Assembly (NCBI GenBank): GCA_905235685.1
Contig: CAJOMO010000017.1
Coordinates: 1-64,000, forward strand
DNA from: an uncultured Selenomonadaceae bacterium
GTDB taxonomy: Bacteria; Bacillota; Negativicutes; Selenomonadales; Selenomonadaceae
DNA: 64,000 nt
Reading direction: 5' to 3'
The position numbers were made by a program, and so were the translations under genes. The notes below the pieces were generated by a model. That model searched no databases. It saw only the letters and a list, made by a program, of their open reading frames with translations, and was not told where the DNA came from. Each line of letters begins with the position of its first letter. The stretch's first letter is position 1. Below, piece by piece: positions 5,051 to 59,250 of the stretch.

Positions 5051-5208
5051 CAAAAAAAGAGGCGCGCACGGACGCGCGCCCCGAACTCCTGCCCGCGCCC
5101 CTGCGTGGCTTGCGCAGCAAGGCATGCTCTTTAGTATGAGCTGGAAGCGAATTTCATAGCGCGGGCTAGCTTTCTTTGCTACTTTCTTTGGCAATGAAAA
5201 GAAAGTAG
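5051..5208 (-). repeat. Tripartite hairpin element R1 (long form)
   Basis: In its own 5'-3' direction (minus strand) it runs P hairpin (5179-5208, CTACTTTCTTT ... AAAGAAAGTAG), linker GCAAAGAAAG, M hairpin with outer arms GCCCGCGC (5159-5166) and GCGCGGGC (5091-5098), then H hairpin GGCGCGCGTCCGTGCGCGCC (5061-5080) followed by a T-rich run. Inside M it carries an extra palindromic module of about 36 bp (5100-5136), found elsewhere only in R2. It begins 7 bp after the stop codon of the MmeI-like gene, and H plus its T-run probably terminates that transcript. Confidence 0.85.
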
Positions 5209-7984: not shown

Positions 7985-8040
7985 AAGAAACCCCCGCGCC
8001 ATAATTACCGTAAAAAAATAACCAACAACCGAAAATAAGA

Positions 8041-8178
8041 GGCGCTCAAGGATGAGCGCCCCTGTGGCGCGTTTGCGTGGCTTGCGTAAGCAAGGCATGC
8101 TCTTTAGTATCACGTGATGTGACAATCCGCGCCACGTTTTTCTTTGCCAGGCGTTTCTTTTTCGCAAAAAGAAATGCC
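8041..8178 (-). repeat. Tripartite hairpin element R2 (long form)
   Basis: Read on the minus strand: P hairpin (8150-8178, GGCATTTCTTTTT / AAAAAGAAACGCC), linker GGCAAAGAAAAA, M with outer arms GTGGCGCG / CGCGCCAC (8128-8135 and 8064-8071) around the inner loop ATCAC, then H GGCGCTCATCCTTGAGCGCC (8041-8060) and a T-rich tail. A 38-bp extra module (8072-8109) matches the one in R1. P starts 10 bp after the sucD stop codon, so the element lies between sucD and the restriction gene. Confidence 0.85.
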
Positions 8179-16849: not shown

Positions 16850-16961
16850 CAACTTTCTTTCTCAGTCGCCGAAAGAAAGTTGCAAAGAAAGTGCTTGTTT
16901 GCCGGATAATTCGCGTCACGCTCATTAACGGCAAACGGGTTCGCCGCCCATCCTTGGGCGG
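16850..16961 (+). repeat. Tripartite hairpin element R3
   Basis: P hairpin CAACTTTCTTTC / GAAAGAAAGTTG (16850-16882), linker GCAAAGAAAG, M outer arms GTTTGCCG / CGGCAAAC (16897-16904, 16929-16936) around the inner loop GTCAC, H hairpin CCGCCCATCCTTGGGCGG (16944-16961). It lies between rqcH and nrdG, with H 16 bp after the rqcH stop, so it is inverted relative to the neighbouring genes. It is nearly identical to R8. Confidence 0.85.
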
Positions 16962-16977
16962 TCTCAATTGCCGGTCT

Positions 16978-28299: not shown

Positions 28300-28405
28300 G
28301 CATTTCTTTCTTTTGAAAAAGAAAGAAACGCTAAAGCAAAGAAAGAAAACTTGCCCGCATTAGTCGCATCACGCGACTAGCGCGGGGCGCGCGTCCGTGC
28401 GCGCC
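28300..28405 (+). repeat. Tripartite hairpin element R4
   Basis: P hairpin GCATTTCTTTC... / ...GAAAGAAACGC (28300-28331), linker AGCAAAGAAAG, M with outer arms CCCGC / GCGGG and inner arms AGTCGC / GCGACT (28362-28367, 28373-28378) around loop ATCAC, H GGCGCGCGTCCGTGCGCGCC (28386-28405). H ends one base from the tsaC stop codon; P lies just upstream of the HAD gene. Nearly identical to R7. Confidence 0.85.
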
Positions 28406-28406
28406 C

Positions 28407-29027
28407 TCACTCTCCGCGCAAACATCTTTCTATTTCAGTAATTGTGATTGTACCTCGACGCAAAATTTTCAAACCGTCGGTAACATCAATAACCGTTGAA
28501 GATATTCCCACCGCACATTTGCCGCCATCCAATATAATCGGCACTTTGCCACTTAAGCCGTTGAAAACTTCCTGCGCAGTCACCGGCGCAACTTCACCGG
28601 AAATATTCGCACTCGGCGCAGCTATCGGACAATCGGCAAGCTTTATCAAGTCCTGCGCGATTTTGTTATCCGGAAAACGAATGCCCACGCCGCCCGAGCT
28701 GCCCGTCACAAAATCCGGTACAATATCTTTTTTCGGCAATATCAGCGTCAATGGACCAGGGCAAAAATTTTTAATCAGCCTTTCAGTTGCCGCCGAAATT
28801 TCCGCCAATTCCGCTATCTGCGCGAAATCGGCTACGTGCAATGTCAGCGGCTTATTTTCCGGTCTGCCTTTCGCAACATAAATTTTTCGGCAAGCCTCAA
28901 CATTCAAGCCGTCCGCTCCCAAACCGTAAACCGTTTCAGTCGGAAAAGCAACCAATTCACCGCGCCGAATAAGTTCACCTGCGCGAATTAAATTTTCTGC
29001 GGTCGGTTGCAGCATTTCAGTCGTCAT
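28407..29027 (-). CDS. tsaC: L-threonylcarbamoyladenylate synthase
   Basis: A YrdC/Sua5-domain protein of about 206 residues making threonylcarbamoyl-AMP for the universal t6A37 tRNA modification. Visible are the N-terminal RRGELVAFPTETVYGLGADG nucleotide-binding stretch, the KGRPENKPL loop and the PSANISGEVAPV segment. The ATG at 29027 overlaps the prmC stop codon by 4 bp; a GTG at 29036 is an alternative. The prfA-prmC-tsaC order is common in Firmicutes. Confidence 0.93.
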   Translation of the reverse strand: MTTEMLQPTAENLIRAGELIRRGELVAFPTETVYGLGADGLNVEACRKIYVAKGRPENKPLTLHVADFAQIAELAEISAATERLIKNFCPGPLTLILPKKDIVPDFVTGSSGGVGIRFPDNKIAQDLIKLADCPIAAPSANISGEVAPVTAQEVFNGLSGKVPIILDGGKCAVGISSTVIDVTDGLKILRRGTITITEIERCLRGE

Positions 29028-33132: not shown

Positions 33133-33242
33133 GGCGTTTCTTTTTTAGAAAAAGAAACGCCTAGCAAAGAAAAACAGCCCGCCGGATAATTCGCTTCACG
33201 CTCATTAGCGGCGGGCGGGGTTCGGCGCGCATCCGTGCGCGC
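33133..33242 (+). repeat. Tripartite hairpin element R5
   Basis: P hairpin GGCGTTTCTTT / AAAGAAACGCC (33133-33161), linker AGCAAAGAAAAA, M outer arms CCCGCCG / CGGCGGG (33178-33184, 33209-33215) around an inner region matching R3 and R8 with loop TTCAC, H GCGCGCATCCGTGCGCGC (33225-33242). P begins 9 bp after the ACT gene stop. Against R3/R8 the M loop is the same but the outer stem has changed on both arms. Confidence 0.85.
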
Positions 33243-33275
33243 TCCTAAGTTGCAGGTGTTGTTGGAGGCTGTATT

Positions 33276-37333: not shown

Positions 37334-37349
37334 TTTCATACACGAAAAA

Positions 37350-37451
37350 GAGCGCCCATGGATGGGCGCTCCTGTGGCGCGCTTGTCACGTGATGTGACA
37401 ATCCGCGCCACGCTTTTCTTTGCAACTTTCTTTTACTATAAAAGAAAGTTG
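37350..37451 (-). repeat. Tripartite hairpin element R6
   Basis: Minus strand order: P CAACTTTCTTTT / AAAAGAAAGTTG (37423-37451), linker GCAAAGAAAA, M outer arms GTGGCGCG / CGCGCCAC with inner GTCAC-ATCAC-GTGAC (37385-37399), H GAGCGCCCATCCATGGGCGCTC (37350-37371) and a T-run. It lies between convergent tsf and symporter genes, P 3 bp from the tsf stop, and should terminate tsf. Confidence 0.87.
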
Positions 37452-45475: not shown

Positions 45476-45511
45476 AAAATTACTCCTTACGTAAAAATTA
45501 AGCAATTACGA

Positions 45512-45618
45512 GGCGCGCACGGACGCGCGCCCCGCCCGCGCTAGTCGCGTGATGCGACTAATGCGGGCAAGTTTTCTTTCTTTGCTTTAGCGTTTCTTTC
45601 TTTTTCAAAAAGAAATGC
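45512..45618 (-). repeat. Tripartite hairpin element R7
   Basis: Minus strand: P GCATTTCTTTTT ... AAAGAAACGC (45590-45618), linker AGCAAAGAAAG, M with outer CCCGC / GCGGG and inner AGTCGC-ATCAC-GCGACT (45543-45559), H GGCGCGCGTCCGTGCGCGCC (45512-45531). P starts 10 bp after the ACT gene stop; H is about 35 bp from the leuS start. Near twin of R4. Confidence 0.87.
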
Positions 45619-45628
45619 GTTAAAAAAA

Positions 45629-45898: not shown

Positions 45899-45932
45899 TA
45901 AAAATCACCTCGCCGCGTAATATAACACAACC

Positions 45933-45961
45933 TTGACACCGCCGCAACTTTATTGCAAAAT
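45933..45961 (+). promoter_or_regulatory. Probable promoter of the 45995 gene
   Basis: Perfect TTGACA, 17 bp, then a weak CAAAAT -10. A minus-strand TTGCGG-N17-TATATT pair overlaps it and could serve the divergent ACT gene. Confidence 0.45.
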
Positions 45962-45994
45962 ACTTAGCGAATTTTTTTATTGGAGGTAATTGCT

Positions 45995-46537
45995 TTGAGG
46001 AAAATTTTTTTAATGGCGGCGTTGATTTTTTCGCTGATAAGTTGCACAGCCTTTGCCGCGACGCAGGAAGTTAAGCCAAATATCGGCGTATTGGTTATCG
46101 GCAGCGCAGAATTTAAGACGCCCGATTATTACAAAATGATAAAAAGTTCCGTGCTGTCAAAGAGCGGCTTAATTGCCGACGTTGGCGAAGATTTTCAAAA
46201 AAAATATCAGAAATTCATGGTTGAAAAGTACGACATTGGCAAGCACACGCCGACGAAAAGCGATTTGGTAAATTTCACGGCGAACAGCGGCTACAGAAAA
46301 CTTTTGGTTATCGTGGTGGATGAAAATCTTGACACGCAGAATAACGCCGATTCACGCCAGAAAAATCGTATCGCAATTCAGCTTGACGTGTACCTTTGCA
46401 ACCGTTCAGAAATTCTCGATATTGCAAACGCCAGCCGCGAAGACGATTCGAAGGCAAGCATTATGCGTGCGCGTAAAGGCGCTTTTCAAAAAAGCTTAAA
46501 CGCCGCTTTGAAGGCGCTCAATTTCAACAAAGAATAA
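45995..46537 (+). CDS. Exported protein, possible lipoprotein
   Basis: The 180-residue precursor starts with TTG at 45995, 8 bp after GGAGG. The signal peptide MRKIFLMAALIFSLISCTAFA contains a lipobox-like LISC, and AFA-A could instead be a type I cut. The mature part (NIGVLVIGSAEFKTPDYYKMIKS ... LLVIVVDENLD) suggests a compact alpha/beta domain. I do not recognise it. It stands alone between divergent and convergent neighbours. Confidence 0.65.
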   Translation: MRKIFLMAALIFSLISCTAFAATQEVKPNIGVLVIGSAEFKTPDYYKMIKSSVLSKSGLIADVGEDFQKKYQKFMVEKYDIGKHTPTKSDLVNFTANSGYRKLLVIVVDENLDTQNNADSRQKNRIAIQLDVYLCNRSEILDIANASREDDSKASIMRARKGAFQKSLNAALKALNFNKE

Positions 46538-46560
46538 AATTTTCTCCCGCAAATAAAAAC

Positions 46561-46592
46561 GCCCTTCAGCAGGAATTTTCCCGCCGGAGGGC
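46561..46592. terminator. Bidirectional terminator-like hairpin
   Basis: GCCCTTC ... GGAGGGC with an internal GCAGG / CCCGC stem, between the convergent 45995 gene and the PTS gene, flanked by A/T-rich runs on both sides. Confidence 0.5.
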
Positions 46593-46624
46593 TTATTAGT
46601 TTCCGCTAAAATAAAATTGAAGTA

Positions 46625-48547
46625 TTATTCTTCAGATTTGTAAAGTGTGAAAGTCAAGCCGAAACCGACCGCAAACGCAATTGCATTAACAAGCAGATAC
46701 ATAGGAATTTGCCCGTTCATGTAAAGGAGCATACCAGGCAGAACCGTAATACCCATACCGGTACCGGCAAGCCCCATAAAGCTGGAGAGAGCGCCGCCAA
46801 CAGCACCGCCAACGCAGCCGTAAATCAAGGGCTTGAGAAGGCGAAGGTTAATACCGAAAATCGCCGGTTCAGTGATTCCAAGGAACGCCGGAACTGTGGA
46901 CGAAATGTAAAGCGCACGTTTCTTAGGATCTTGAGTCTTAAGCGAAACAGCAAGAGCCGCGCCGCCTTGTGCAATCGTCGCGCAGGTGATAATTGCGTTG
47001 AACGGGTCAGAGCCCTGCGTGCTGAGCAGATAAATTTCCAGCGCGCTGAACACGTGGTGAACACCGAAAACAACGATAACCTGTTGCAAACCGCCGATAA
47101 TCAAGCCGCCGATAACCGGAATTGTCAAGAAGTTTTGAACAGCGCCGAAAACGATTTGTTCCAAACCGTGCATGATAGGACCAACAACGAGGAAACCAAG
47201 CGCCATTGAAGTGAGCAGGGTAAGGAACGGAGTTACGATAAGGTCAATCATATCGGGAATAAAGGTTTTGAGGAATTTCTGGAATTTCGCCGCGAAAATA
47301 CCAAGAACAAGTGCGGGGAGAACCGAGCCTTGATAACCAACGAGCGGGATTGTTACGAAGCCCAAATCGAGCGGAATAGGGGTTTTACCTGCAAATTCCG
47401 GCAAGGCATAAGCTTCAACCCACGTCAAACCTTTGGCAGCAATTTCAGCCGCCGCGCCGCCGACTGCGTACGCATTAGGCAATCCAGGGAAAACTAACAT
47501 AAGACCAAGGACGATACCAATAACCGCAGTGCCGCCGAATTTGTTCATGGTTGACCAACAAACCAGCGCGGGCAAAAATGCAAACGCCGTATCAGTCAAA
47601 ACCTGCGTCATTAACAGGAAAGTAGGATCCCATTCACTGCCGAGCGAGAGCATAGCGCCGCGCAGACCCATGAACAAACCTGTTGCAACCAAAACCGGAA
47701 TAATCGGAACGAAAACGTCGCCCAATGTACGAGAAATTTTCTGTACAAGGCTCATTTCGGCGTAAGCCGCTTCTTTACCTCCGCCGCCGGCAAGCGCGGG
47801 TTTGAGCTTGATAAATTCGTCTGTAACTTTGTCGACAAAACCTGTACCGCAGATAATCTGATACTGCTGAGCCGCGAAGAATTGTCCTTTGACGCCTTCG
47901 ATGTTTTCGACTTTTTTCTCTTGAATCTTCGATTTGTCATTGACAATAAGGCGCAAACGCGTCGCGCAGTGTTCAGCCGTCCTTACGTTATCCGGACCGC
48001 CAACGTATTTCATAATCAGCTTAGCAACGCGCTCTTCGTCCGGCAAGCCGTCATACTGAGAATCATCAGCATCTTTTTCGACAGGACCGGAACTTGCTTC
48101 AGCCGCGGGCGCTTTCGACGTAATTTCTTGATTTTTCAGCTCGAAAGTAATATCGCCGAAATCCGCGTGATTGGTGACGACAACCGGCGTCGTGGTTTCG
48201 TAGCCGGCTTTTTTAATGACGTTGGGGTCAAATTCGAGCAAAAGTTGCCCGCGTTTAACCTTGTCGCCCGCCTCGGCTTTGGAAGTGAAACCTTCGCCGT
48301 TGAGTTTAACCGTGTCCATACCGACGTGAATCAAAAGTTCAATGCCGTCGTTGGACTTGAGACCGATAGCGTGCTTTGTCGGGAAGAAAACAGTAATTTC
48401 ACCGTCGAAAGGCGAATAAACTTTTCCTTCGGGGTTTTTGACGGCTATACCGCGTCCCATTGCTCCGCTCGCAAAAACGGGGTCGTTGATTTCATTAAGC
48501 GGTATCAACGTTCCGTTAATCGGGCTGCTAATTCGTATGTTCTTCAT
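46625..48547 (-). CDS. PTS sugar permease, fused EIIA-EIIB-EIIC (glucose/sucrose superfamily)
   Basis: It imports and phosphorylates a sugar using phosphate from HPr. The 640-residue order is EIIA (residues 1-145, His in ELLIHVGMDTVKL), a Ser/Ala linker, EIIB (about 165-250, phospho-Cys in AEHCATRLRL) and a polytopic EIIC (about 270-640) with the STVPAFLGITEPAIFGINLR motif. That motif and TRLRL favour sucrose or a beta-glucoside over glucose; the sugar is not certain. EIIA at the N-terminus is the less usual order. No sugar hydrolase or regulator adjoins it. Confidence 0.9.
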   Translation of the reverse strand: MKNIRISSPINGTLIPLNEINDPVFASGAMGRGIAVKNPEGKVYSPFDGEITVFFPTKHAIGLKSNDGIELLIHVGMDTVKLNGEGFTSKAEAGDKVKRGQLLLEFDPNVIKKAGYETTTPVVVTNHADFGDITFELKNQEITSKAPAAEASSGPVEKDADDSQYDGLPDEERVAKLIMKYVGGPDNVRTAEHCATRLRLIVNDKSKIQEKKVENIEGVKGQFFAAQQYQIICGTGFVDKVTDEFIKLKPALAGGGGKEAAYAEMSLVQKISRTLGDVFVPIIPVLVATGLFMGLRGAMLSLGSEWDPTFLLMTQVLTDTAFAFLPALVCWSTMNKFGGTAVIGIVLGLMLVFPGLPNAYAVGGAAAEIAAKGLTWVEAYALPEFAGKTPIPLDLGFVTIPLVGYQGSVLPALVLGIFAAKFQKFLKTFIPDMIDLIVTPFLTLLTSMALGFLVVGPIMHGLEQIVFGAVQNFLTIPVIGGLIIGGLQQVIVVFGVHHVFSALEIYLLSTQGSDPFNAIITCATIAQGGAALAVSLKTQDPKKRALYISSTVPAFLGITEPAIFGINLRLLKPLIYGCVGGAVGGALSSFMGLAGTGMGITVLPGMLLYMNGQIPMYLLVNAIAFAVGFGLTFTLYKSEE

Positions 48548-48610
48548 TACAATACCTCCTTTAATTTAGAAAAAACATACAGCTTTAGAAAATAAAAAAA
48601 TTCCTAGGAA

Positions 48611-48639
48611 ATTATATCTTTCAAAACAGGCAACGTCAA
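48611..48639 (-). promoter_or_regulatory. Promoter of the PTS gene
   Basis: TTGACG, 17 bp, perfect TATAAT on the minus strand, about 65 bp before the ATG. No antiterminator (RAT/terminator) structure was seen. Confidence 0.7.
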
Positions 48640-48699
48640 CTTTTTTATTAGAGCAAGATTAGAAATTTTTAGGCTAAGATTAAGAATCGGCGTCAACAC

Positions 48700-48728
48700 T
48701 AGACATTTGCCCCGAATTATTTTATAAT
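48700..48728 (+). promoter_or_regulatory. Promoter of the 85-aa gene
   Basis: TAGACA, 17 bp, perfect TATAAT, 43 bp upstream of the ATG at 48772. Divergent from the PTS promoter. Confidence 0.65.
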
Positions 48729-48771
48729 ACGCACTGTGACATGAAACGTTTTTAGCGGAGGGAAAATTATC

Positions 48772-49029
48772 ATGAGAAACAGAATCGAAATTACCAAAAC
48801 CAACGGCGTTGTTGACAGGATCCACTTCTACCTGGTATCCGGCGGCAAAAGGTACTACTTGTTCTCACAAAAATTCTCAAAAGGCGTGTACGAATTTTTC
48901 AGAGGAGGACGCGCCGAATCTGAATTGTACGGTTACAGGGGCTGGCGTAAAAACCCACGCCTCGGTAAAACAATCGAAAAAATCCCAATGTATATCCGCT
49001 ACGTTATGAAGGAGGAAATGGCAGCGTAA
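48772..49029 (+). CDS. Small basic protein of unknown function
   Basis: The 85-residue protein is rich in Arg, Lys, Tyr and Phe (RIHFYLVSGGKRYYLFSQKFSKGVYEFFRGG ... IPMYIRYVMKEEMAA in part). It has no signal peptide or membrane helix. It has a near-consensus promoter, a strong GGAGGG ribosome site and its own terminator, so it is a real, probably well-expressed gene. The basic, aromatic composition would suit nucleic-acid binding; no family recognised. Confidence 0.75.
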   Translation: MRNRIEITKTNGVVDRIHFYLVSGGKRYYLFSQKFSKGVYEFFRGGRAESELYGYRGWRKNPRLGKTIEKIPMYIRYVMKEEMAA

Positions 49030-49071
49030 CCCCAGCGAATCCCTACTCATCGTCATACAAAGTTAAAAAGG

Positions 49072-49106
49072 CTCGACAGGTTGAAAAATCTGCCGAGTTT
49101 TTTTAT
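49072..49106 (+). terminator. Terminator of the 85-aa gene
   Basis: CTCGACAG ... CTGCCGAG stem followed by T7, reaching the stop codon of the convergent gene at 49103. Confidence 0.75.
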
Positions 49107-49582
49107 TGAACCATCGGAATAGTATGCTCAAAATCCATGGCGGTTTTAATCGCGTCAATCCATTCTTGCCCGTGATAGACAACGAACCGATGAGAATCCG
49201 ATTTCGTGTAAATGACAATGTGCTGAGAAATTAACAAATTCAGAGCCAATTTAATGTCGCGGATGTCATTCAAATCAATGGTACATTCGCGCCTGCCGAT
49301 ATTAACTTGATGAGCTTTGAAATATAAATTGCGGTTTGTGAGCAATAATTTTCCGCCCGCAGAAATTATACCGGTAAAATAATTCGCCCAGCCCAAACGA
49401 ATCGGGCGTTCGCCCTTGCCGAGAAGTTTGCCAAACACGTAAACTCCGGAATATTCCTCAACGTTAATTTCGGGCAAATCTACAGATTTTTCTTCGGACT
49501 CGATTATGTAACTCCCGCAATGTTCGCACTGATTTTTTTTCGGATTATAGGGCTCGCCGCATTTCGGACATTTTAAATCCAT
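49103..49582 (-). CDS. Zinc-ribbon protein with PH/GRAM-like domain
   Basis: The 159-residue protein starts with a zinc ribbon, CPKCGEPYNPKKNQCEHCGSY (CxxC-x(n)-CxxC). The rest (LLLTNRNLYFKAHQVNIGRRECTIDLNDIRDI then a HIVIYTKSDSHRFVVYHG strand and a C-terminal helix) resembles bacterial PH/GRAM-like folds. The function is unknown. It lies 15 bp after the AmrS gene and is probably in that operon. Confidence 0.65.
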   Translation of the reverse strand: MDLKCPKCGEPYNPKKNQCEHCGSYIIESEEKSVDLPEINVEEYSGVYVFGKLLGKGERPIRLGWANYFTGIISAGGKLLLTNRNLYFKAHQVNIGRRECTIDLNDIRDIKLALNLLISQHIVIYTKSDSHRFVVYHGQEWIDAIKTAMDFEHTIPMVQ

Positions 49583-49597
49583 AGCCGAACACTCCCT

Positions 49598-50419
49598 TTA
49601 GCAGTTGCCGGTGTAAACGTATTTCAAAAAATTTCGCGCAGTTCCGGCAAGATTATAAACCGTTTGAATATCGGTTGCCGCCCTGTCAGTAACTTTGTAC
49701 CGCGGGAAAAACCTTGAAACGTGCAGCGGAATTTCCGCGTCAATCGACGCCAGCCATTTCGCCTCGTCAATCATATCAGTTTCCGCGTCATTCATTCCAG
49801 GAACAATCAGCGTCGTAACTTCCACGTGACAACTTTTCGACGCAATTTCAATAGTTTTTTTCACGGTTTCAAAATCGCCGCCGAGATATTCATAAATTTC
49901 TGCGCGAAAACCTTTCAAATCAATGTTCATAGCGTCAATCAGCGGAAGAATTTTTTTCAAAGCGCCGCTCGCCACAGTTCCATTCGTAACCAAAACGGAC
50001 TTCAAGCCAACTTTTTTCAAAAGCGCCGAAGTATCTCGAACAAATTCATAGCTGATAAAAGGCTCGTTGTACGTAAATGCAACGCCGATATTGCCGCGCG
50101 CGCGAAGTTCCAGCGCAGTATTGACAACTTGCTCGGGCGTGGCTTTACGCGTGGGAAAAGTTGAATCAGCCATCGAAATTTGATAGTTTTGGCAAAATGG
50201 GCAATTCAAATTGCAACCGTAACTGCCGATTGACAAAATCCAACTGCCGGGGAAAAATCGGTAAAGCGGTTTTTTTTCGATGGGGTCAAGCGCAACGGAA
50301 GTCAATTCGCCATAATTCAGCGCAGTAATTTTTTCGCCGTCATTAATGCGCGCCCGACATTTCCCAATTTCGCCGGTTTCCAATTTGCAATGGTGCGGAC
50401 AAATCTCACAAATTTTCAT
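49598..50419 (-). CDS. amrS: AmmeMemoRadiSam-system radical SAM enzyme
   Basis: The 273-residue protein resembles pyruvate formate-lyase activating enzymes, with the radical SAM motif C-x3-C-x2-C in YGCNLNCPFCQNYQIS. It also has the extra N-terminal cysteines CEICPHHCKLETGEIGKC and the C-terminal YTGNC that typify AmrS. The companion MEMO and AMMECR1 genes are not in the window. The reaction is not established for the family. Confidence 0.85.
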   Translation of the reverse strand: MKICEICPHHCKLETGEIGKCRARINDGEKITALNYGELTSVALDPIEKKPLYRFFPGSWILSIGSYGCNLNCPFCQNYQISMADSTFPTRKATPEQVVNTALELRARGNIGVAFTYNEPFISYEFVRDTSALLKKVGLKSVLVTNGTVASGALKKILPLIDAMNIDLKGFRAEIYEYLGGDFETVKKTIEIASKSCHVEVTTLIVPGMNDAETDMIDEAKWLASIDAEIPLHVSRFFPRYKVTDRAATDIQTVYNLAGTARNFLKYVYTGNC

Positions 50420-50428
50420 GGCAGTACC

Positions 50429-51331
50429 TCAAGACATAGTGTAGCGATTAACCCAGGCAGAATTTTTTTTGGCAAAAGCCCGCAGACGAACAAGCCCCTT
50501 GTAGTCCGGCTCATTGCTGCGAATCATATGATAAGAGCCGCCGTATTCGTCGTCAAGAGCCGCCCAATGCCGCGTGTTGATATTCCAAATTTGCCCCGTG
50601 ATAATTCGTTCCGTGCCTTGCGAAAGATTGACAGCCTTTTTCATAAAACGAATCTCAGCCACTTGACCGGAAATATTTTTAGTTTCCTGCCATTCCCACA
50701 AAATTAAATTCGCGCCCTTCATTTGCATAGTCGTAGTATCGGCGGTTAGAGTAACCATTGAGCCGTCGGTGTTGTTGGTACTCCAAAGTTCAATCCAGCG
50801 ATCTTCGGCGTTTTTGCGCTCAACTTCGCCTTGATAAAAAACTTCGTCGACAATCGCCACGAAAAAATCTTCGTCGAAAGCCTGCGAATTAATTTCTTTG
50901 ACGTGCCCGTCATTTTGCGACCAAATGACATTGCCGGCGGCGTCATAAAAATCCTCGCGCGCATATTTAATCGTGCGATTTTGCGGATTAATCGTCAAGA
51001 GCGCCAGACTATAGGACAAAGTTTTTGGGTCGGGCAAAATATTTGCAATGCCGTAAGCCTTGATTGTGTCTTTTGCGCCGTTATAGGTGTAAGTTGTTTT
51101 CGTCCACGCCTCGATCTCGGTGGGAACTTCCTTTTTGCCAATCAGCGCCTGTTTACGAACAACGACAGTATTTGGCGCGTAAAATTTGCTGTACTTGTTA
51201 TCGGAGGCGAGCCAATACCAGGCGTAATCTTTACCGGGCGGCGGGTTGTCCTGCGCGAAAGTTGCGGTAAAATTAAAAACAAAAATAGCGGTGAAAATCA
51301 TTGCGAAAAAATTTTTAAACAAAGTCCTCAC
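50429..51331 (-). CDS. Exported protein of unknown function
   Basis: The 300-residue protein has a signal peptide (NFFAMIFTAIFVFNFTATFAQ) and a beta-rich body (DYAWYWLASDNKYSKFYAPNT, WIELWSTNNTDGSMVTL). Repeated surface-strand patterns of this kind are seen in envelope proteins of Negativicutes, but I recognise no named family. The GTG start overlaps the GTPase stop codon (GTGA), so the two are translationally coupled. Confidence 0.7.
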   Translation of the reverse strand: MRTLFKNFFAMIFTAIFVFNFTATFAQDNPPPGKDYAWYWLASDNKYSKFYAPNTVVVRKQALIGKKEVPTEIEAWTKTTYTYNGAKDTIKAYGIANILPDPKTLSYSLALLTINPQNRTIKYAREDFYDAAGNVIWSQNDGHVKEINSQAFDEDFFVAIVDEVFYQGEVERKNAEDRWIELWSTNNTDGSMVTLTADTTTMQMKGANLILWEWQETKNISGQVAEIRFMKKAVNLSQGTERIITGQIWNINTRHWAALDDEYGGSYHMIRSNEPDYKGLVRLRAFAKKNSAWVNRYTMS

Positions 51332-51771
51332 CCCTTAAGCAAACGAATAATTTCAGAATTAAGTTCAGCGATACCGGCGCCGGTTTGAGCGCTGACGCAG
51401 ATTGATTTTAAACCGGAAGCCTCATTGACGGCCGCCGCCAAATTTTTGCCGCCGTCCACAAATCTATCGGCTTGACTGACGACGGGAATAATCGCCGCGC
51501 CGGTTTTGCGCAATTTACTAATCCAGGCGAGCTCCAATTCGAAAGAATCATTTGGAATGAGCATAAGCGCGACTTCGATACTTTCGGCGGATTTACCGGC
51601 GGTAGATTCAGCCACGTCCACGCCGACGGTATCGACGAGCATAATTTTTCCGACGCCGCCAATTTCCATTGAGCTGTAGGCAGTTTCCTTAGTCATTTTG
51701 TGATTGGTCAAAGCGTACATGAGCGCAGATTTACCGCTCTTACGTTTGCCAAAAATACCAACCTGTCTCAT
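51328..51771 (-). CDS. Small P-loop GTPase (HydF/EutP-like, single domain)
   Basis: The 147-residue protein begins RQVGIFGKRKSGKSALMYALTN, a Walker A/G1 motif. G2-like Thr/Ser follow in TAYSSMEIGGVG; G3 is LVDTVGVD and G4 is the atypical VVSQAD. The sequence resembles the GTPase domain of HydF and also EutP/PduV, but no cluster-binding or other domain follows, so this is a stand-alone GTPase. It is coupled to an exported protein and is upstream of AmrS. Confidence 0.72.
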   Translation of the reverse strand: MRQVGIFGKRKSGKSALMYALTNHKMTKETAYSSMEIGGVGKIMLVDTVGVDVAESTAGKSAESIEVALMLIPNDSFELELAWISKLRKTGAAIIPVVSQADRFVDGGKNLAAAVNEASGLKSICVSAQTGAGIAELNSEIIRLLKG

Positions 51772-51842
51772 TTGCGGACGCCTCCTTTGTTTTTTGTAAA
51801 TTATATCACATTGCCCCTGGATAATGAAGAAATTTTTGCAAC

Positions 51843-51868
51843 AAAAAAGGCGCGTACGGACGCGCGCC
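51843..51868 (-). terminator. Terminator of the PHP gene; solitary H module
   Basis: GGCGCGCGTCCGTACGCGCC followed by T6, 7 bp after the PHP stop codon. Stem and GTCCGT loop match the H hairpins of the tripartite elements, but P and M are missing. Confidence 0.8.
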
Positions 51869-51875
51869 TATGCCG

Positions 51876-52721
51876 TTATAAATCGATAAATTCACGTTGA
51901 CGCTGATTGAAGCGCAGGATTTTTTTATATCCGAACTTTTTAACATAATCAATAGCCTCGTCGCAGAAATTGCCGCAGTCTTCGGGTTGGTGAGCATCCG
52001 AACTGATAATTATCGGCAGATCATACGCCGCCGCAACTTTCATAAAATCTGCGTAGGGCGAAATTTCCTGCACAGGATAACGATATTTTGTGCCGGTGTT
52101 GACGTCGACAGCCAAATTATTTTTTTTCATGGCAACGGCAACGCGCTCAAGATAATTCGTCACGTCAAAATCCGGAAAATATTTAAACAGCCGAATATTA
52201 AAAGGATGCCCAAGAATATCATAAATTCCGGAGGCGGATAATTTTTCAACTTCGCGCGTGTATTGCTCATAAATTTCGCGCAGGTCGTGACGAGTCCATT
52301 CAGATTTAATTTTCGACGCGTCATAGCCCCAGCCCCATAAAAAATGCACCGAGCCAATTATATAATCGAAATTCCATCCGTCCAGAATTTTTTTGACAGC
52401 CGCCTGATTTTGGAAATTGCAAACTTCAATGCCGATTTTAACCGCGTGATTTTTCTGCAGTTCACTCATAAAATCAAAATAATCTTTGAGCGTGTGCTTA
52501 AATTTATTCGTCTTGAGCCAAATTTTTTGAAACGCGCCGACTTCCGAATCGTCCAAAATCAAATCGTCGTAGTAAAGTTTTTCAAATTCCGGAAAAGTAT
52601 GCGAATGCTCCGAAATTCCAATTTCACTAAGCCCGCGCTTTTTTGCCGCCGCGAAAAATCCTTCAACCCAATCAAAATCATAATCGCCGTACTCAAAATG
52701 CATATGATAATCCAGTTTCAT
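51876..52721 (-). CDS. PHP-domain phosphoesterase (histidinol-phosphatase-like)
   Basis: The 281-residue protein has the PHP metal motifs: LDYHMHFEYGD near the N-terminus, IGISEHSHTFPEF, GIEVCNF, IIGSVHFLWG, DILGHPFNI and IIISSDAHQPEDCG. HisK-type histidinol-phosphate phosphatases share this set, but a general phosphoesterase is possible since no his genes adjoin. The ATG at 52721 follows AAGGAGATTTTTTTT. Confidence 0.85.
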   Translation of the reverse strand: MKLDYHMHFEYGDYDFDWVEGFFAAAKKRGLSEIGISEHSHTFPEFEKLYYDDLILDDSEVGAFQKIWLKTNKFKHTLKDYFDFMSELQKNHAVKIGIEVCNFQNQAAVKKILDGWNFDYIIGSVHFLWGWGYDASKIKSEWTRHDLREIYEQYTREVEKLSASGIYDILGHPFNIRLFKYFPDFDVTNYLERVAVAMKKNNLAVDVNTGTKYRYPVQEISPYADFMKVAAAYDLPIIISSDAHQPEDCGNFCDEAIDYVKKFGYKKILRFNQRQREFIDL

Positions 52722-52734
52722 AAAAAAAATCTCC

Positions 52735-52763
52735 TTCAAAAAATTAACGGTTTTGATTATAAT
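52735..52763 (+). promoter_or_regulatory. Possible recT promoter
   Basis: TTCAAA, 17 bp, perfect TATAAT, 43 bp before the recT ATG. The -35 is weak. Confidence 0.4.
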
Positions 52764-52806
52764 TATTCAGCCGATTGTTGTAAAGTTTTTTTAAGGAGGA
52801 AACATT

Positions 52807-53613
52807 ATGCCAAATGAAACAAAGCCGCTCACTCTGCCGCAACTTTTAGAAAAAGACACCGTCAAAAAGCGTTTCGTTGAGATTCTCGACAAAAACGCCA
52901 GCGGTTTTATTCAGTCGCTGTTGACGATTTACAACAGCAGTGATTCGCTGAAAAAATGCGACGCGCGCTCGATTTTGGCAGCGGCAGGTTTGGCGGCAAC
53001 GCTCAATTTGTCAATCAGTCCAAGTTTGGGGCACGCCTATATCGTTCCGTACGGCGGCAAAGCCCAGTTTCAAATTGGCTGGAAAGGTTTAGTTCAACTC
53101 GCTCACCAAACCGGCAAATACGTCGCCCTGCACAGCGGCGTTGTCTATGAAGGGCAAATTCGCGATATCGATTGCATAACCGGCGAACTCATTCGCGGCG
53201 AAAAAATTTCCGACGAAGTTGTCGGCTACGTCGCTTATATGAAACTGGCTAACGGTTTCGAAAAATCGTTGTACATGACGCGCGCCGAAATGGAAGAACA
53301 CGCTATGAAATTTTCACAAACTTATCAGTCCGATAAACAAAAAAAATGGTCAACCTGGGCAAAATTTTTCGACAAAATGGCGTGCAAGACTGTTTTAAAA
53401 TTGCTGTTGAGCCGCTGGGGAATTTTAAATTCGGATTTGGCAACGGCAATTCAAGCGGATCAGTCCGAAGTAACGAAAACAACTTTCACGTACATTGACA
53501 ACGACGGCAAAACCGTGGAGCGCGATTCGATTTTTGAATTGGACGAGCCGCAAACCGTTGACGCGCCATTTGAAGAAATAATTGACGCCGAAACCGGCGA
53601 AGTGATTAAATAA
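52807..53613 (+). CDS. recT: RecT-family single-strand annealing protein
   Basis: RecT anneals complementary single strands in phage-type recombination. The 268-residue protein has the family core: SILAAAGLAATLNLSISPSLGHAYIVPYGGKAQFQIGWKG and later YMTRAEMEEHAMKFSQTYQ with KTVLKLLLSRWG. The acidic C-terminus is typical for interaction with SSB or nuclease. No RecE exonuclease, SSB or phage gene is next to it, so it is an orphan, perhaps a prophage leftover or a domesticated gene. Its stop is immediately adjacent to the convergent phosphoesterase stop. Confidence 0.92.
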   Translation: MPNETKPLTLPQLLEKDTVKKRFVEILDKNASGFIQSLLTIYNSSDSLKKCDARSILAAAGLAATLNLSISPSLGHAYIVPYGGKAQFQIGWKGLVQLAHQTGKYVALHSGVVYEGQIRDIDCITGELIRGEKISDEVVGYVAYMKLANGFEKSLYMTRAEMEEHAMKFSQTYQSDKQKKWSTWAKFFDKMACKTVLKLLLSRWGILNSDLATAIQADQSEVTKTTFTYIDNDGKTVERDSIFELDEPQTVDAPFEEIIDAETGEVIK

Positions 53614-54093
53614 TTATCTCAAGCGAATAATCGTAACTTTCGGCTCGATATTCGGCAAAAGTTCCATAATGATAAATGAGTCGCGGTTATCGTCGCGCGG
53701 GCGTGAGGCGCTGCCAGGATTCAAAAGTAGCGGCGGACCAATCCGATAATCGACAATGTGAGTATGCCCGTACAGCGCAATATCCGCGCCTTGAGATTCC
53801 GCCGCCTCCATAACGTACTCTTGAGTGTAGCGGACGCCGTAATTGTGCCCGTGCGTCATAAAAATTTTGTGCCCTTCCGCCTCGACAATCCGCTCGTAAC
53901 AAGTATTGCTCATTGGCCAATCGCAATTTCCCGCCACGCCATAAACCGGCACATTAACTAAACTCTGCAAATATTCAGCGTCCGGCGTACAATCGCCCAA
54001 GTGCAGCCACATATCCATTTTCTGCGCGATACTTACAACTTTTTCGACGGCAGAATAATTTCCGTGCGTGTCGCTGATAATTCCAATATTCAC
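53614..54093 (-). CDS. Metallophosphoesterase, YfcE/MJ0936 family
   Basis: The 159-residue calcineurin-like phosphodiesterase has IGIISDTHGNYSAVE, WLHLGDCTPDAEY, VAGNCDWP, FMTHGHNYG and LYGHTHIVDY, a complete dimetal site. The GTG start overlaps the rdgB stop (GTGA). The order rph-rdgB-yfcE is common in Firmicutes. Confidence 0.92.
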   Translation of the reverse strand: MNIGIISDTHGNYSAVEKVVSIAQKMDMWLHLGDCTPDAEYLQSLVNVPVYGVAGNCDWPMSNTCYERIVEAEGHKIFMTHGHNYGVRYTQEYVMEAAESQGADIALYGHTHIVDYRIGPPLLLNPGSASRPRDDNRDSFIIMELLPNIEPKVTIIRLR

Positions 54094-54686
54094 TCCAATC
54101 GCTCCTTTAATTTCGGCACTAATTCACGAAGCGCCGCGCCGCGATGGCTAATCTGGTCTTTTTCTTCGGGAGTAAGTTCCGCCATCGTTTTCGAATCGTT
54201 TATGTAAAAGTACGGGTCGTAACCAAAGCCACCTTCGCCGCGCGCGATATTTTTAATCGTGCCATAAATCACGCCCGACGCGGTAATTTCCGTGCCGTCA
54301 ACGTCGATAAAACACAGAGCGCAGCGATAATCGGCGGCAGATTCAGTAACGCCCGCCTTTGCAAGTTCCTCAAGCAATTTTTGATTATTTGTAACGTCGT
54401 GTGCGTGATAGCCGGCAAATCGCGCAGAATATACGCCAGGACGCCCGCCGAGCGCCTCAACCTCTAAGCCTGAATCGTCGGCAATGCACGCAAGCCCAGT
54501 TTTTTCAACAAAAAATTTTGCCTTGATACGCGCATTTTCTTCAAAAGTCGCGCCGTCTTCAACAGCGTCCGGAATATCGCCAATATCCGCCAGCGATAAA
54601 AATTCCACCGGCAAACCTTCAAAAGCAACCTCCAATTCGCAAAGTTTATCTAAATTTTTCGTAGCGATAACAATTTTTTTCGCCAT
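54090..54686 (-). CDS. rdgB: Non-canonical purine NTP pyrophosphatase (RdgB/HAM1)
   Basis: It hydrolyses dITP, ITP and XTP to keep them out of DNA and RNA. The 198-residue protein has KIVIATKNLDKL, the catalytic TGLACIADDSGLEVEALGGRPGVYSARF region, FGYDPYFY and ISHRGAAL. The ATG directly follows the rph stop codon (TGA ATG). Confidence 0.96.
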   Translation of the reverse strand: MAKKIVIATKNLDKLCELEVAFEGLPVEFLSLADIGDIPDAVEDGATFEENARIKAKFFVEKTGLACIADDSGLEVEALGGRPGVYSARFAGYHAHDVTNNQKLLEELAKAGVTESAADYRCALCFIDVDGTEITASGVIYGTIKNIARGEGGFGYDPYFYINDSKTMAELTPEEKDQISHRGAALRELVPKLKERLE

Positions 54687-55424
54687 TCAACCAACCCTCC
54701 CTACGCGCCAAACCAATTCGCCCAGCGCGTCTTTTTGCATATCAATTAATTTATTAATGCCAACTTCAGCCAAATCAAGCAGTTCATTCAGATCTTTTCG
54801 CGTGAAAGAATTTTTTTCGCCGGTAATTTGAACTTCAACCAATTCGCCCGCGCCCGTCATAACTACGTTGCAATCGGCAAGCGCGCTCGAATCTTCTTCG
54901 TAACACAAATCTAAAATTTTCTCGCCGGTTTCGGAAATGCCCGCGGATATCGCCGCGACAAAATCTTTGACGGGAAAAACTTTGCCGCTCTCGTAAATTT
55001 TTTCGCACGCCTCAACCAACGCCACAAACGCCGCCGTTATCGCCGCAGTCCGAGTGCCGCCGTCCGCTTGAATAACATCGCAGTCAAGCGTAATTGTCCT
55101 TTCGCCAATTTTTGTCAAATCGGTTACATTTCTTAGCGCCCGCCCGATTAGCCGCTGAATTTCCGCTGTCCTGCCGCTAGGTTTTTTGAGTTCCCGCGGC
55201 GCGCGCAGGATTGGCGCTGAAGGCAGCATTGAATATTCCGCATTGAGCCAGCCCGTGCCTGTGCCTTTTAAAAACGGCGGAACTTTATCTTCGACGGTCG
55301 CCGCGCATATGACTTTCGTATTGCCGATTTCTATGTATGCCGAGCCGTGCGGGTAAATTTGGAAACGCCGCTGCAAAAAAACTTCGCGCAGTTGATTCGG
55401 CTTGCGTTTATCCGATCTTGACAA
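54687..55424 (-). CDS. rph: Ribonuclease PH
   Basis: A phosphorolytic 3'-5' exoribonuclease that trims tRNA precursors; a tRNA operon lies next to it. The 245-residue protein has GNTKVICAATVEDKVPPFL, GWLNAEYSMLPSA, EIQRLIGRALRNV and LDCDVIQADGGTRTA. I choose TTG at 55424 after AGGGGGAATTTTTTT; the open frame runs 21 codons further without homology. Confidence 0.95.
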   Translation of the reverse strand: MSRSDKRKPNQLREVFLQRRFQIYPHGSAYIEIGNTKVICAATVEDKVPPFLKGTGTGWLNAEYSMLPSAPILRAPRELKKPSGRTAEIQRLIGRALRNVTDLTKIGERTITLDCDVIQADGGTRTAAITAAFVALVEACEKIYESGKVFPVKDFVAAISAGISETGEKILDLCYEEDSSALADCNVVMTGAGELVEVQITGEKNSFTRKDLNELLDLAEVGINKLIDMQKDALGELVWRVGRVG

Positions 55425-55505
55425 AAAAAATTCCCCCTGCCTTGCGAATTTGAGATACATTGTACACAAAAAATTTCTCAGCCGCAATGTTTGATTAAAA
55501 TTTTC

Positions 55506-55534
55506 TTGACAAAATGAAATTCAGCGAATATAAT
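55506..55534 (+). promoter_or_regulatory. Consensus promoter of the tRNA operon
   Basis: Perfect TTGACA, 17 bp, perfect TATAAT, 31 bp before the first tRNA. The strongest promoter seen in the window. Confidence 0.9.
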
Positions 55535-55565
55535 ACGCCCTGTCAGTTGAAGTACTGATTGAGAC

Positions 55566-55640
55566 GCGGAAGTAGCTCAGTGGTAGAGCACAACCTTGCC
55601 AAGGTTGGGGTCGCGAGTTCGAGCCTCGTTTTCCGCTCCA
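55566..55640 (+). tRNA. tRNA-Gly (GCC), copy 1
   Basis: 75 nt with encoded CCA. Acceptor GCGGAAG / TTTCCGC, D-arm AGCTCAGTGGTAGAGC, anticodon loop TTGCCAA, T-arm with GTTCGAG. Confidence 0.95.
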
Positions 55641-55650
55641 AATAGTTCTT

Positions 55651-55725
55651 GCGGAAGTAGCTCAGTGGTAGAGCATCACCTTGCCAAGGTGGGGGTCGCG
55701 AGTTCGAGCCTCGTTTTCCGCTCCA
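55651..55725 (+). tRNA. tRNA-Gly (GCC), copy 2
   Basis: Nearly identical to copy 1; differs only in the anticodon stem, where ACC / GGT replaces AACC / GGTT with pairing kept. CCA encoded. Confidence 0.95.
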
Positions 55726-55764
55726 TTTTTTTGATAAATAAGTTGGCAACCGAACGGTTCAACC

Positions 55765-55841
55765 GGACCTATAGCTCAGTTGGTTAGAGCAACCGGCTCA
55801 TAACCGGTCGGTCCTAGGTTCAAGTCCTAGTGGGTCCACCA
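55765..55841 (+). tRNA. tRNA with CAT anticodon (Met elongator or Ile2)
   Basis: 77 nt, anticodon loop CTCATAA, encoded CCA. The acceptor GGACCTA / TGGGTCC resembles Firmicute tRNA-Ile2, in which TilS converts C34 to lysidine. Elongator Met cannot be excluded by eye. Confidence 0.9.
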
Positions 55842-55861
55842 ACTTTAAATAAAAAATATTT

Positions 55862-55936
55862 GGCCTTGTAGCTCAGCTGGATTAGAGTATTTGACTACGA
55901 ATCAAAGGGTCGGGGGTTCAAGTCCCTCCAAGGTCA
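55862..55936 (+). tRNA. tRNA-Arg (ACG)
   Basis: Anticodon loop CTACGAA, T-arm GGGGGTTCAAGTCCC, acceptor GGCCTTG / CAAGGTC with one G-T pair. CCA is not encoded, unlike the three tRNAs before it. A34 would need TadA deamination. Confidence 0.92.
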
Positions 55937-55940
55937 TTTT

Positions 55941-56018
55941 AGTGGATAGAAATTAGTAGTTAGGTTATAGGGAATGGTGCCCTAAATCCTATTTTCTAAA
56001 TCCTAAATCCTAAAAAAC
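55941..56018. repeat. TAGG/CCTAAAT-rich imperfect hairpin (copy 3)
   Basis: Lies inside the tRNA operon between tRNA-Arg and tRNA-Tyr. Left arm with AGTTAGGTTATAGGG, right arm CCCTAAATCCTA followed by tandem CTAAATC heptamers, ending CCTAAAAAAC as in copy 2. Confidence 0.55.
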
Positions 56019-56099
56019 GGGTAGGTGCCCGAGTGGCTAAAGGGGGCGGACTGTAAATCCGTTGCATTTGCTACGATGGTTCGAATCCATCCCTGCCCA
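56019..56099 (+). tRNA. tRNA-Tyr (GTA)
   Basis: Class II tRNA of 81 nt with a long variable arm. Anticodon loop CTGTAAA, acceptor GGGTAGG / CCTGCCC, T-arm GGTTCGAATCC. CCA not encoded. Confidence 0.93.
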
Positions 56100-56107
56100 T
56101 TTAAAAC

Positions 56108-56136
56108 AGCGTCGCTTGATTAGGCGGCGTTTTTTA
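56108..56136 (+). terminator. Terminator of the tRNA operon
   Basis: CGTCGC ... GCGGCG stem (one G-T pair) followed by T6, just after tRNA-Tyr. Confidence 0.8.
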
Positions 56137-56162
56137 GTTTAGCAATTTCCTAAACTATGGAA

Positions 56163-56274
56163 GCCGCCACGGATGGCGGCCGAACCCGTTTGCCGCTAAT
56201 GAGCGTGAAGCGAATTATCCGGCAAACAAGCACTTTCTTTGCAACTTTCTTTCGGCGACTGAGAAAGAAAGTTG
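56163..56274 (-). repeat. Tripartite hairpin element R8
   Basis: Minus strand: P CAACTTTCTTTC / GAAAGAAAGTTG (56242-56274), linker GCAAAGAAAG, M outer GTTTGCCG / CGGCAAAC (56188-56195, 56220-56227) with loop TTCAC, H GCCGCCATCCGTGGCGGC (56163-56180). P begins 5 bp after the dhaM stop codon. Confidence 0.87.
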
Positions 56275-56279
56275 AATAA

Positions 56280-56663
56280 CTATGCTAATTTCCTTATCGT
56301 ACGTGAACGAATCGCGCTGGTTTCAATTTCGTCTAAAGTTTTGCCGAGTTTGGATTCCACCGCCGCAATTACCGCGCCTTCGACAATCGGACAATCTACA
56401 ATTTTCAAATTTGGACGTTTTAAAATTTCAACAGCCATTTCTGCCGTCAAAATCGAACTGCCAATATCGGCTATCAATGCAACGCCGTCGTCGGAATAAA
56501 CTTTTTTCACCGCGCCAATAATTTTCCGGCAACTTGTACCCATGCTGCCGTCGTCCATACCGCCCGCCGCGATTATCGGAACTTCCGGCGCCATCATTTT
56601 CGCAACTTCAACTACACCTTCAGCAAGGCGGCTGCTGTGCGACGCAACTACAATTCCAACCAT
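56280..56663 (-). CDS. dhaM: DhaM-type PTS EIIA component (dihydroxyacetone kinase phosphotransfer subunit)
   Basis: Passes phosphate from HPr to ADP bound on DhaL. The 127-residue protein starts MVGIVVASHSSRLAEGV, with the phospho-His in ASHS, then AAGGMDDGSMGTS and VALIADIGSSILTAEMA, typical of mannose-family EIIA as used in DhaM. dhaK and dhaL are absent from the window. The ATG at 56663 follows GGAG. Confidence 0.85.
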   Translation of the reverse strand: MVGIVVASHSSRLAEGVVEVAKMMAPEVPIIAAGGMDDGSMGTSCRKIIGAVKKVYSDDGVALIADIGSSILTAEMAVEILKRPNLKIVDCPIVEGAVIAAVESKLGKTLDEIETSAIRSRTIRKLA

Positions 56664-56709
56664 AAACATCTCCGCCCTTCCATTCACGCAAATTCTTAAA
56701 CTTAATCAG

Positions 56710-56737
56710 ATTTTATCAGCGCAAAAATTTTTGTCAA
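56710..56737 (-). promoter_or_regulatory. Promoter of dhaM
   Basis: TTGACA, 16 bp, TAAAAT on the minus strand. It lies back to back with the pyrophosphatase promoter. Confidence 0.6.
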
Positions 56738-56742
56738 TCGAA

Positions 56743-56771
56743 TAGACAGCGCAAATTTTTTTAGTTATAAT
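56743..56771 (+). promoter_or_regulatory. Promoter of the pyrophosphatase gene
   Basis: TAGACA, 17 bp, perfect TATAAT, 48 bp before the ATG. Confidence 0.65.
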
Positions 56772-56819
56772 TTTGTCGTTGCTAAAGTTTTTCGTATTTT
56801 TTCTGAGGAGGCTTATTTA

Positions 56820-58472: not shown

Positions 58473-58476
58473 TGTC

Positions 58477-58584
58477 GGCATTTCTTTTTTAAAAAAGAAA
58501 CGCCTAGCAAAGAAAAACGTGGCGCGGATTGTCACATCACGTGACAAGCGCGCCACAGAGCCGCCCGTCCGTGGGCGGCTTTTT
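58477..58584 (+). repeat. Tripartite hairpin element R9
   Basis: P GGCATTTCTTTTTT / AAAAAAGAAACGCC (58477-58504), linker AGCAAAGAAAAA, M outer GTGGCGCG / CGCGCCAC (58519-58526, 58549-58556) with inner GTCAC-ATCAC-GTGAC, H GCCGCCCGTCCGTGGGCGGC (58560-58579) and T5. P begins 4 bp after the pyrophosphatase stop. H with its T-run is a good terminator. Confidence 0.88.
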
Positions 58585-58611
58585 CGTGTATAGAATTTTT
58601 TATCGGTAAAA

Positions 58612-59163: not shown

Positions 59164-59212
59164 AAATTAAACCCTCCTAAAAAAAACTACAAAAATTTTT
59201 ATACCTGCGAAA

Positions 59213-59241
59213 ATATTAAGGCGGCGAATTATTTTTGTCAA
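59213..59241 (-). promoter_or_regulatory. Promoter of the rubrerythrin gene
   Basis: Perfect TTGACA, 17 bp, TAATAT on the minus strand, 50 bp before the ATG. Confidence 0.7.
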
Positions 59242-59250
59242 GGAATTTTT

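Follow-up and report, generated by a model that had tools for sequence, protein, structure and literature searches.

The window is a 64,000-nucleotide stretch of a contig from the 1.96-Mb assembly of an uncultured Selenomonadaceae bacterium (genome G000), in which one large gene has its best protein neighbours in rumen Selenomonadaceae. The window carries on its minus strand a PHP-domain gene followed by a short hairpin and a small GTPase gene:

51876..52739, minus strand: PHP-domain gene upstream of the hairpin (Pfam PF02811, E 7.4e-15)
51870..51875, minus strand: CGGCAT, directly 3' of the stop codon, leftover of the 5' end of a leader (sequence comparison)
51849..51868, minus strand: H hairpin of the remnant, GGCGCGCGTCCGTACGCGCC (sequence, match to model R1, fold)
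51843..51848, minus strand: T6 tract, predicted intrinsic terminator (sequence)
51800..51805, minus strand: TATAAT, promoter-like, in the gap between hairpin and GTPase gene (by eye; TATAAT lies there in congeners too)
51328..51771, minus strand: small GTPase gene, next after the hairpin (PF01926)

The PHP gene stops at TAA, after which come CGGCAT, a single A, the hairpin GGCGCGCGTCCGTACGCGCC and the T6 tract (51875-51843, minus strand), with the hairpin starting 7 nt past the stop. The hairpin was originally predicted to terminate the PHP gene, and the anatomy agrees with this: a G+C-rich hairpin and then a T run lie directly behind the gene. Its predicted fold has a 7-bp stem with an outermost A-T pair and an 8-nt loop at -12.6 kcal/mol (-13.4 kcal/mol with slightly longer flanks), and an A/T pair at 51848/51869 is able to extend the hairpin. 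This energy is ordinary for the composition (z = -1.0), and a simple terminator scan of positions 45000-64000 returned 23 sites, fewer than the 33.4 (sd 5.9) of shuffled sequences. The anatomy by itself is therefore weak evidence, and termination here is a prediction from it.

The repeat family and the hairpin behind the PHP gene

A genome search with the PHP hairpin region turned up this hairpin, which we call H, in nine more short matches, and the genome contains the pattern GCNCNNGGANGNGCGCC 66 times, against 0 for a reversed control. We took as a sample the window and 40 genome stretches picked by contig number, not content (819,532 bases together), and built a covariance model, R1, from 42 of 44 perfect hairpins, leaving out the copy behind the PHP gene. 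R1 gave 103 matches in the genome at E<=0.01, of which we examined 91 (46 in the sample and 45 in 44 fetched stretches). In aligned copies the full element is about 100 nt long and has three parts, a leader palindrome, a nested hairpin P, and the hairpin H with its tail, often a T tract. The leader is a T-rich/A-rich palindrome (AACTTTCTTTT...AAAAGAAAGTT or GGCATTTCTTT...AAAGAAACGCC) with the 3' end GCAAAGAAA. By eye, P lies upstream of H in 89 of the 91 examined copies; one further copy is cut by a contig end, and the copy behind the PHP gene alone lacks P. The stems of H covary, with pairing in 100% of the cells of a 42-row alignment and changes on both sides in five of eight pairs. H modules matched by R1 in the window, each given as the 28-nt model span, are:

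5057..5084, minus strand: H module of an element with an insert in the P region
8037..8064, minus strand: H module of an element with an insert inside P
16939..16966, plus strand: H module with leader and P upstream
28382..28409, plus strand: H module with leader and P upstream
33220..33247, plus strand: H module with leader and P upstream
37347..37374, minus strand: H module with leader and P upstream
45508..45535, minus strand: H module with leader and P upstream
56158..56185, minus strand: H module with leader and P upstream
58556..58583, plus strand: H module with leader and P upstream

The insert in the P region is about 35-40 nt long (ATACTAAAGAGCATGCCTTGC...GCAAGCCACGC) and was seen in the window at 8037-8200 and 5057-5230 and elsewhere at L093:7064, L240, L258 and L266; it is presumably the part that the original prediction called module M. 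The leaders of L114:4936 and L119:19632 hold an inverse sequence related to this insert. The window also contains near-tandem 57-nt units with TCGCGCCAATACGCGA-like hairpins (61681-61921), which by eye are unlike the elements, and direct duplications of about 130-140 nt with 90-93% identity (14211-14599 and 29905-30193).

Composite stem-loop repeats of bacteria include BIME/REP and BOX. Like these, the elements are dispersed, intergenic and made of palindromic modules in variable combinations, with about 100 copies. Unlike these, they lie at gene ends with a strong convergent excess, their stems change around a nearly fixed loop core, the nearest congener has the same sites with a different element sequence, and there is no Y1/RAYT gene. 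A REP/RAYT system was accordingly discarded, the Y1 transposase family PF01797 having 0 matches in G000, though it was found in 5 of 14 control genomes. A survey counted 92 stem-loop repeat families in bacteria, according to the portion of that paper available (PMC2267715). In the stretches scanned, no element gave an Rfam match at or above a family's cutoff, and tRNAs, located elsewhere, were the only ones to pass; one element queried against each of the plasmid and phage collections gave no match; and we found no description of the element in the openly licensed literature.

That the hairpin behind the PHP gene is a copy of H, as originally proposed, was borne out by sequence comparison. It is identical to the commonest H (GGCGCGCGTCCGTGCGCGCC) at 19 of 20 positions, and R1 matches it at 51845-51872 (minus strand) with 26.4 bits and E=0.0095 over 819,532 bases, the weakest of the 46 matches at E<=0.01 in the sample. 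The sole mismatch affects a pair for which all 44 perfect copies have C-G and this one has C.A, because the last G of the loop core is an A, and this makes the stem weaker: five other window copies of H fold at -19.4 to -25.8 kcal/mol, against -12.6 to -13.4 for this one. An ordinary terminator that resembles H by chance would likewise be short, alternating G+C-rich stems are common in the genome, and the fold z of -1.0 fits such a case too; against it stand the 19/20 identity, the R1 match, a leader stub and an aligned H in the nearest congener, and we regard a chance likeness as very improbable.

The leader stub is only 6 nt long. CGGCAT within 12 nt of a stop codon was found for 5 of 716 crude gene calls, which are four leaders and the copy behind the PHP gene. 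A full element has leader and P upstream of H, and here only CGGCAT is left and P is missing. The original prediction had noted that P and M are absent, which is correct for both, with the refinement that CGGCAT after the stop codon is the start of a leader. Its view of the hairpin as a solitary H module in its own right did not hold up: this is the sole H without P among the 90 judged, a leader stub precedes it, and its aligned counterpart in the nearest congener is part of a longer element. A stand-alone mobile H was rejected for the same reason, just 1 of 90 judged copies being without P.

The nearest congener among the 30 searched is G004, with 93% identity in PHP. There the PHP stop codon is followed directly by ATCGGCATTTCTTTCTAGAAAGAAAC, a longer leader stub, and the orthologue of the GTPase gene sits behind a longer element. 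Alignment matches the H, T run, TATAAT and ribosome-binding site there to those at the remnant. The two genes are no longer neighbours in G004, and an ancestral PHP-GTPase junction is for this reason inferred. By eye, a full element separates PHP from the GTPase gene in L133 and in L135, its orientation differing between the two; L136 has leader and P with a broken H. No element adjoins the PHP stop codon in 15 of 19 congener loci, so the element is dispensable at this site.

The only H without P, the leader stub and the aligned H within a longer element in G004 together point to a remnant. We conclude, with a probability of about 0.78, that the PHP hairpin is what survives of a composite gene-end element, namely its 3' end, and that it still occupies the position of an intrinsic terminator for the PHP gene. 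A single deletion may have taken out P entirely and the leader except for CGGCAT, so that CGGCAT, H and T6 are left; the loop core of the remnant is already decaying.

The loop core and the position of the elements at gene ends

The original prediction described a constrained loop, TCC with one variable following base, in stems that differ widely, and proposed a count of loop sequences. Perfect 8-bp G+C-rich tetraloop hairpins in the 819,532-base sample have loops starting with TCC in 44 of 277 cases, where about 4 are expected if all 64 trinucleotides are taken as equal; AAA (17) and CGG (15) come next, the latter being the other-strand reading of TCCG hairpins. The outcome that would have refuted the original prediction, TCC loops no commoner than expected, was thus not obtained. 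All 44 TCC hairpins have a purine before TCC (A 22, G 22) and a T behind TCCN, with C-G as the pair that comes next, and N is G in 26, T in 17, A in one and never C. The constraint despite differing stems was thus correctly seen, and its wording was too weak, the core being C-R-TCC-N-T-G. This core is present in 89 of the 91 examined copies, the exceptions being the remnant (CGTCCGTA, last G replaced by A) and L129:3064, in which one core base is missing. Among 93 hairpins of G000 with the core, the outer pair is G-C in 69 and N is G in 50, T in 40 and A in three. Elements found by their leader motif in place of the loop carry the core within 190 nt in 32 of 33 cases (40 motif matches, 7 of them non-elements by eye).

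The constraint lies within the repeat family and does not extend to terminators at large. Of 104 intergenic T-tailed hairpins, 22 are the H of an element, and the remnant and the damaged elements L093 and L126 also have TCC; the remaining 79, which may include other element parts, have TCC anywhere in the loop in only two cases. A general TCC loop rule for terminators was dropped on this count (2 of 79 outside element H copies), and the TCC enrichment belongs to the repeat family. The ordinary terminators named for comparison in the original prediction (39363, 42955, 56108 and 63915) indeed lack the core in four of four cases.

Since congener rows found by R1 are biased toward the core, we made an unselected census of 20 hand-picked congeners, using stretches taken by contig number and not selected for the core (726,739 bases). 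TCC is second among the loop starts there (16 of 252, after AAA with 19), and the TCC hairpins have the full core in 16 of 16 cases, with seven different stems in seven genomes; no TCC-core hairpin was found in the stretches of 13 of the 20 congeners.

A DNA-uptake motif had been suggested as one cause of a fixed loop. Like the uptake sequences of Neisseria, the core is a short fixed motif repeated genome-wide in terminators or terminator-shaped hairpins; those sequences form terminators as inverted repeats, so that the motif is the stem, as far as the available part of the source describes them (PMC2397512). Here the geometry is reversed, with stems that covary (both sides changed in five of eight pairs) and a loop that is fixed, and H was found in one genus only among 168 family genomes (best 44 or fewer candidates per genome scored). 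An uptake sequence is therefore an unlikely cause, and we rejected it.

The elements lie at gene ends. Both neighbours were called for 86 elements (four more had a neighbour missing; the gene calls are crude and hexamer-based), and 37 of these lie between convergent, 45 between tandem and four between divergent genes. Gaps of at least 30 bases in the sample (n=365) comprise 48 convergent, 248 tandem and 69 divergent ones, which gives a convergent excess of the elements with a Fisher p of 1.6e-11. Among the tandem elements, H stands as the predicted terminator of the upstream gene in 29, and 16 are reversed. By a cutoff of at least 5 T in 8, 60 of the 91 copies have a T run behind H and 31 do not. 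Read on the other strand, all 85 leader-bearing elements have TTTTCTTTG after P, with 6-7 T of 8; this tail is present by construction because the leader motif that forms it selected the set; the median fold energy of P in these elements is -25.5 kcal/mol. With H and a T tract on one strand and P and TTTTCTTTG on the other, the element looks like a two-way terminator.

Distribution and rewriting of the elements across species

For a search of the family we built a second model, R2, from 16 own rows, hand-picked for different stems, and 29 congener matches; 28 of 30 loci from the R1 search were carried forward, two G000 loci being omitted. Across 168 genomes at least 80% complete, with E<=0.001 and the best 44 or fewer candidates per genome scored, H was found in at least 32, all of the own genus (53 genomes). 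It was not found under these settings in the 115 genomes of other genera, 102 of which have CsrA. Within the genus, G013, G037 and G103 have neither CsrA nor an H match, and these three genomes are incomplete; 18 members with CsrA are also without an H match, under the same limit on candidates and with strict filters, so that the joint absence carries little weight.

We then compared G000 with G004, in which the shared sites hold an element in both genomes. Thirty G004 stretches divide into 21 with both flanks at one G000 place, three with split flanks and six with none or one, and the 21 placed stretches were aligned, only the G004 side having been selected for the core. The core is kept in 19 of the 21 G000 partners, and its differences fall on the free positions R and N, except at L093 and L317. 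Over all eight core positions 20 of 167 differ, against 319 of 2090 and 545 of 2881 in the flanks, a core rate not far below that of the flanks, owing to frequent changes at the two free positions. In G004, 22 of the 30 copies have A-T as the outer pair and 29 have N=T, and P differs between the two genomes in most of the pairs printed.

After omission of L306, the G000 flanks of which are 1.5 kb apart, 18 of 20 pairs had an H in the same orientation in G000; those without were L093, where H is damaged, and L311. At 17 of these 18 shared sites the G000 copy is nearer to another G000 copy (0.89-1.00) than to its G004 counterpart (0.59-0.73), and the remaining pair is a tie at 0.98. Copies have therefore been rewritten in each lineage. 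The sites are thus fixed and the copies at them rewritten per species, by conversion or re-insertion, with the core persisting.

At two, perhaps three, of the 24 placed G004 sites the flanks match separate G000 places (L279, L295 and possibly L290), as would be expected from recombination between copies. The elements at L279 and L295 coincide with breakpoints of rearrangement between G004 and G000; L290 perhaps reflects similar neighbouring genes.

Candidate readers of the loop

A loop that stays near-unchanged while the rest is rewritten between species suggests that something reads it, possibly the RNA-binding protein CsrA. We propose, tentatively and at less than even odds, that a protein recognises the hairpin loop, the first candidate being CsrA on the opposite-strand RNA. 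The core would be fixed because the opposite-strand RNA carries a predicted CsrA-binding hairpin, C-ANGGAY-G, a possibility that addresses the conservation of the loop and not the identity of the remnant, and for which we again see somewhat poorer than even chances. Elements at gene ends would then load 3' UTRs with candidate CsrA sites, as a dispersed sponge or for local control. On the GGA strand the H hairpin is of the GGCGCTCAAGGATGAGCGCC type, and an ANGGAN hexaloop on a C-G closing pair is found in 89 of 91 copies; the A, the GGA and the closing C-G are fixed, and N and the last base vary (44/44 perfect copies; 89/91 examined; 16/16 in congeners). These fixed and free positions agree with those reported for CsrA/RsmE in the parts of two sources used here (PMC7652899, PMC4005645), of which the former gives ANGGAN for the RsmE loop and RUACARGGAUGU with six-nucleotide loops as the CsrA SELEX consensus. 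The csrA gene of the genome adjoins fliW and encodes L4, R6, R44 and E46, residues that the same excerpts name for CsrA (PMC7652899, PMC4005645). The elements share the ANGGAN hexaloop on a C-G pair with CsrA/RsmE sites such as the hcnA RBS hairpin and the CsrB/RsmZ loops, as far as these are described in the material available, and differ from them in their very stable G+C-rich stems, in having one or two predicted sites per element and in being dispersed over the genome. A gene read on the GGA strand ends at 53 of 86 elements. The remnant itself keeps the loop ACGGAC on this strand, with T.G as the closing pair.

Several observations count against CsrA. Elements read solely on the TCC strand keep the core equally well, the remnant excepted; H was found in none of the 102 other-genus genomes that have CsrA (of 115 searched with R2 at E<=0.001, best 44 or fewer candidates per genome); with fliW present, CsrA already has a protein antagonist; and the element stems are very stable, whereas most SELEX hairpins have four pairs or fewer in the portion of PMC7652899 available. 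G000 has FliW, as do 150 of 168 family genomes, and the idea that its absence explains an RNA antagonist of CsrA was discarded. The P loop gives a divided picture. It is A(N)GGA on the GGA strand in 10 of 27 congener elements (e.g. CAGGATG or CATGGATG), but mostly CGTGATG, without GGA, in G000 (57 in 85 folded elements), and the TCAC type accounts for 12 of the 27 congener P loops (by eye, 14 have TCC on the other strand and one is ambiguous). Across species the P loop alternates between CGTGATG and CAGGATG/CANGGATG on the GGA strand. The TwoAYGGAY RNA (RF01731), predicted as CsrA-binding in the part of PMC4333381 available, likewise has neighbouring hairpins with AYGGAY-like loops, and all three of its genome matches at E<=10 fall on elements in the GGA orientation. 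The best of these, however, reaches only 24.1 bits (E 0.2), far under the gathering cutoff of 43; GTGA predominates among the P loops of G000; in one element alignment (L151) the outer stem has many broken pairs; and no RF01731 match on the window was among the matches listed. A flagellin start, sought by motif so that the leader of that gene could be compared, was not found in the DNA examined.

The main alternative to CsrA is that machinery which copies, re-inserts or homogenises the elements, such as a hairpin-binding recombinase, a transposase or a reverse-transcription step, recognises the core in DNA or RNA. Such machinery would fit the rewriting of 17 of 18 shared sites per lineage (0.89-1.00 against 0.59-0.73) and the split flanks at two, perhaps three, of 24 G004 sites. 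Plain gene conversion, on the other hand, needs no fixed loop, the genome has no Y1 transposase (PF01797) and hence no RAYT-type enzyme, and no candidate enzyme was found in a test that covered the Y1 family; we consider this explanation doubtful. Alternatively, the TCC strand could be the functional RNA, with a UCCN loop at the 3' end that binds a protein or a GGA-containing RNA, e.g. a Shine-Dalgarno sequence. This would suit the 66 of 86 elements that follow a gene on the TCC strand, the frequent T run behind H on it, and the formation of the last pair (A-T or G-T) on that strand in 38 of 38 distinct rows. It is nevertheless improbable: each of the 44 perfect copies has T, and none has C, directly after N, and pairing on the TCC strand fails to explain this fixed T, G-C being the better pair; moreover, 16 tandem-context elements face the other way.

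The lone hairpin is itself a minor remnant, and checking it revealed a repeat family that conserves position and loop while the rest turns over within species. The family separates what seems to be kept, the placement of an element at a gene end and its loop, from what is not, the sequence of the stem, and the conservation of the loop offers a direct test of CsrA binding. In its fullest form, the picture would be of a genus of rumen Selenomonadaceae with up to about 100 two-way terminators per genome that bear predicted CsrA hexaloops on the opposite strand, a sponge spread over the ends of many transcripts, outside the Gammaproteobacteria, whose gene-end sites are continually overwritten per species around a constant loop, a combination that we judge unlikely as a whole. 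If CsrA does bind, the elements would be a new kind of CsrA-sequestering RNA, distributed across many 3' ends, and the bacterium carrying them has FliW as well.
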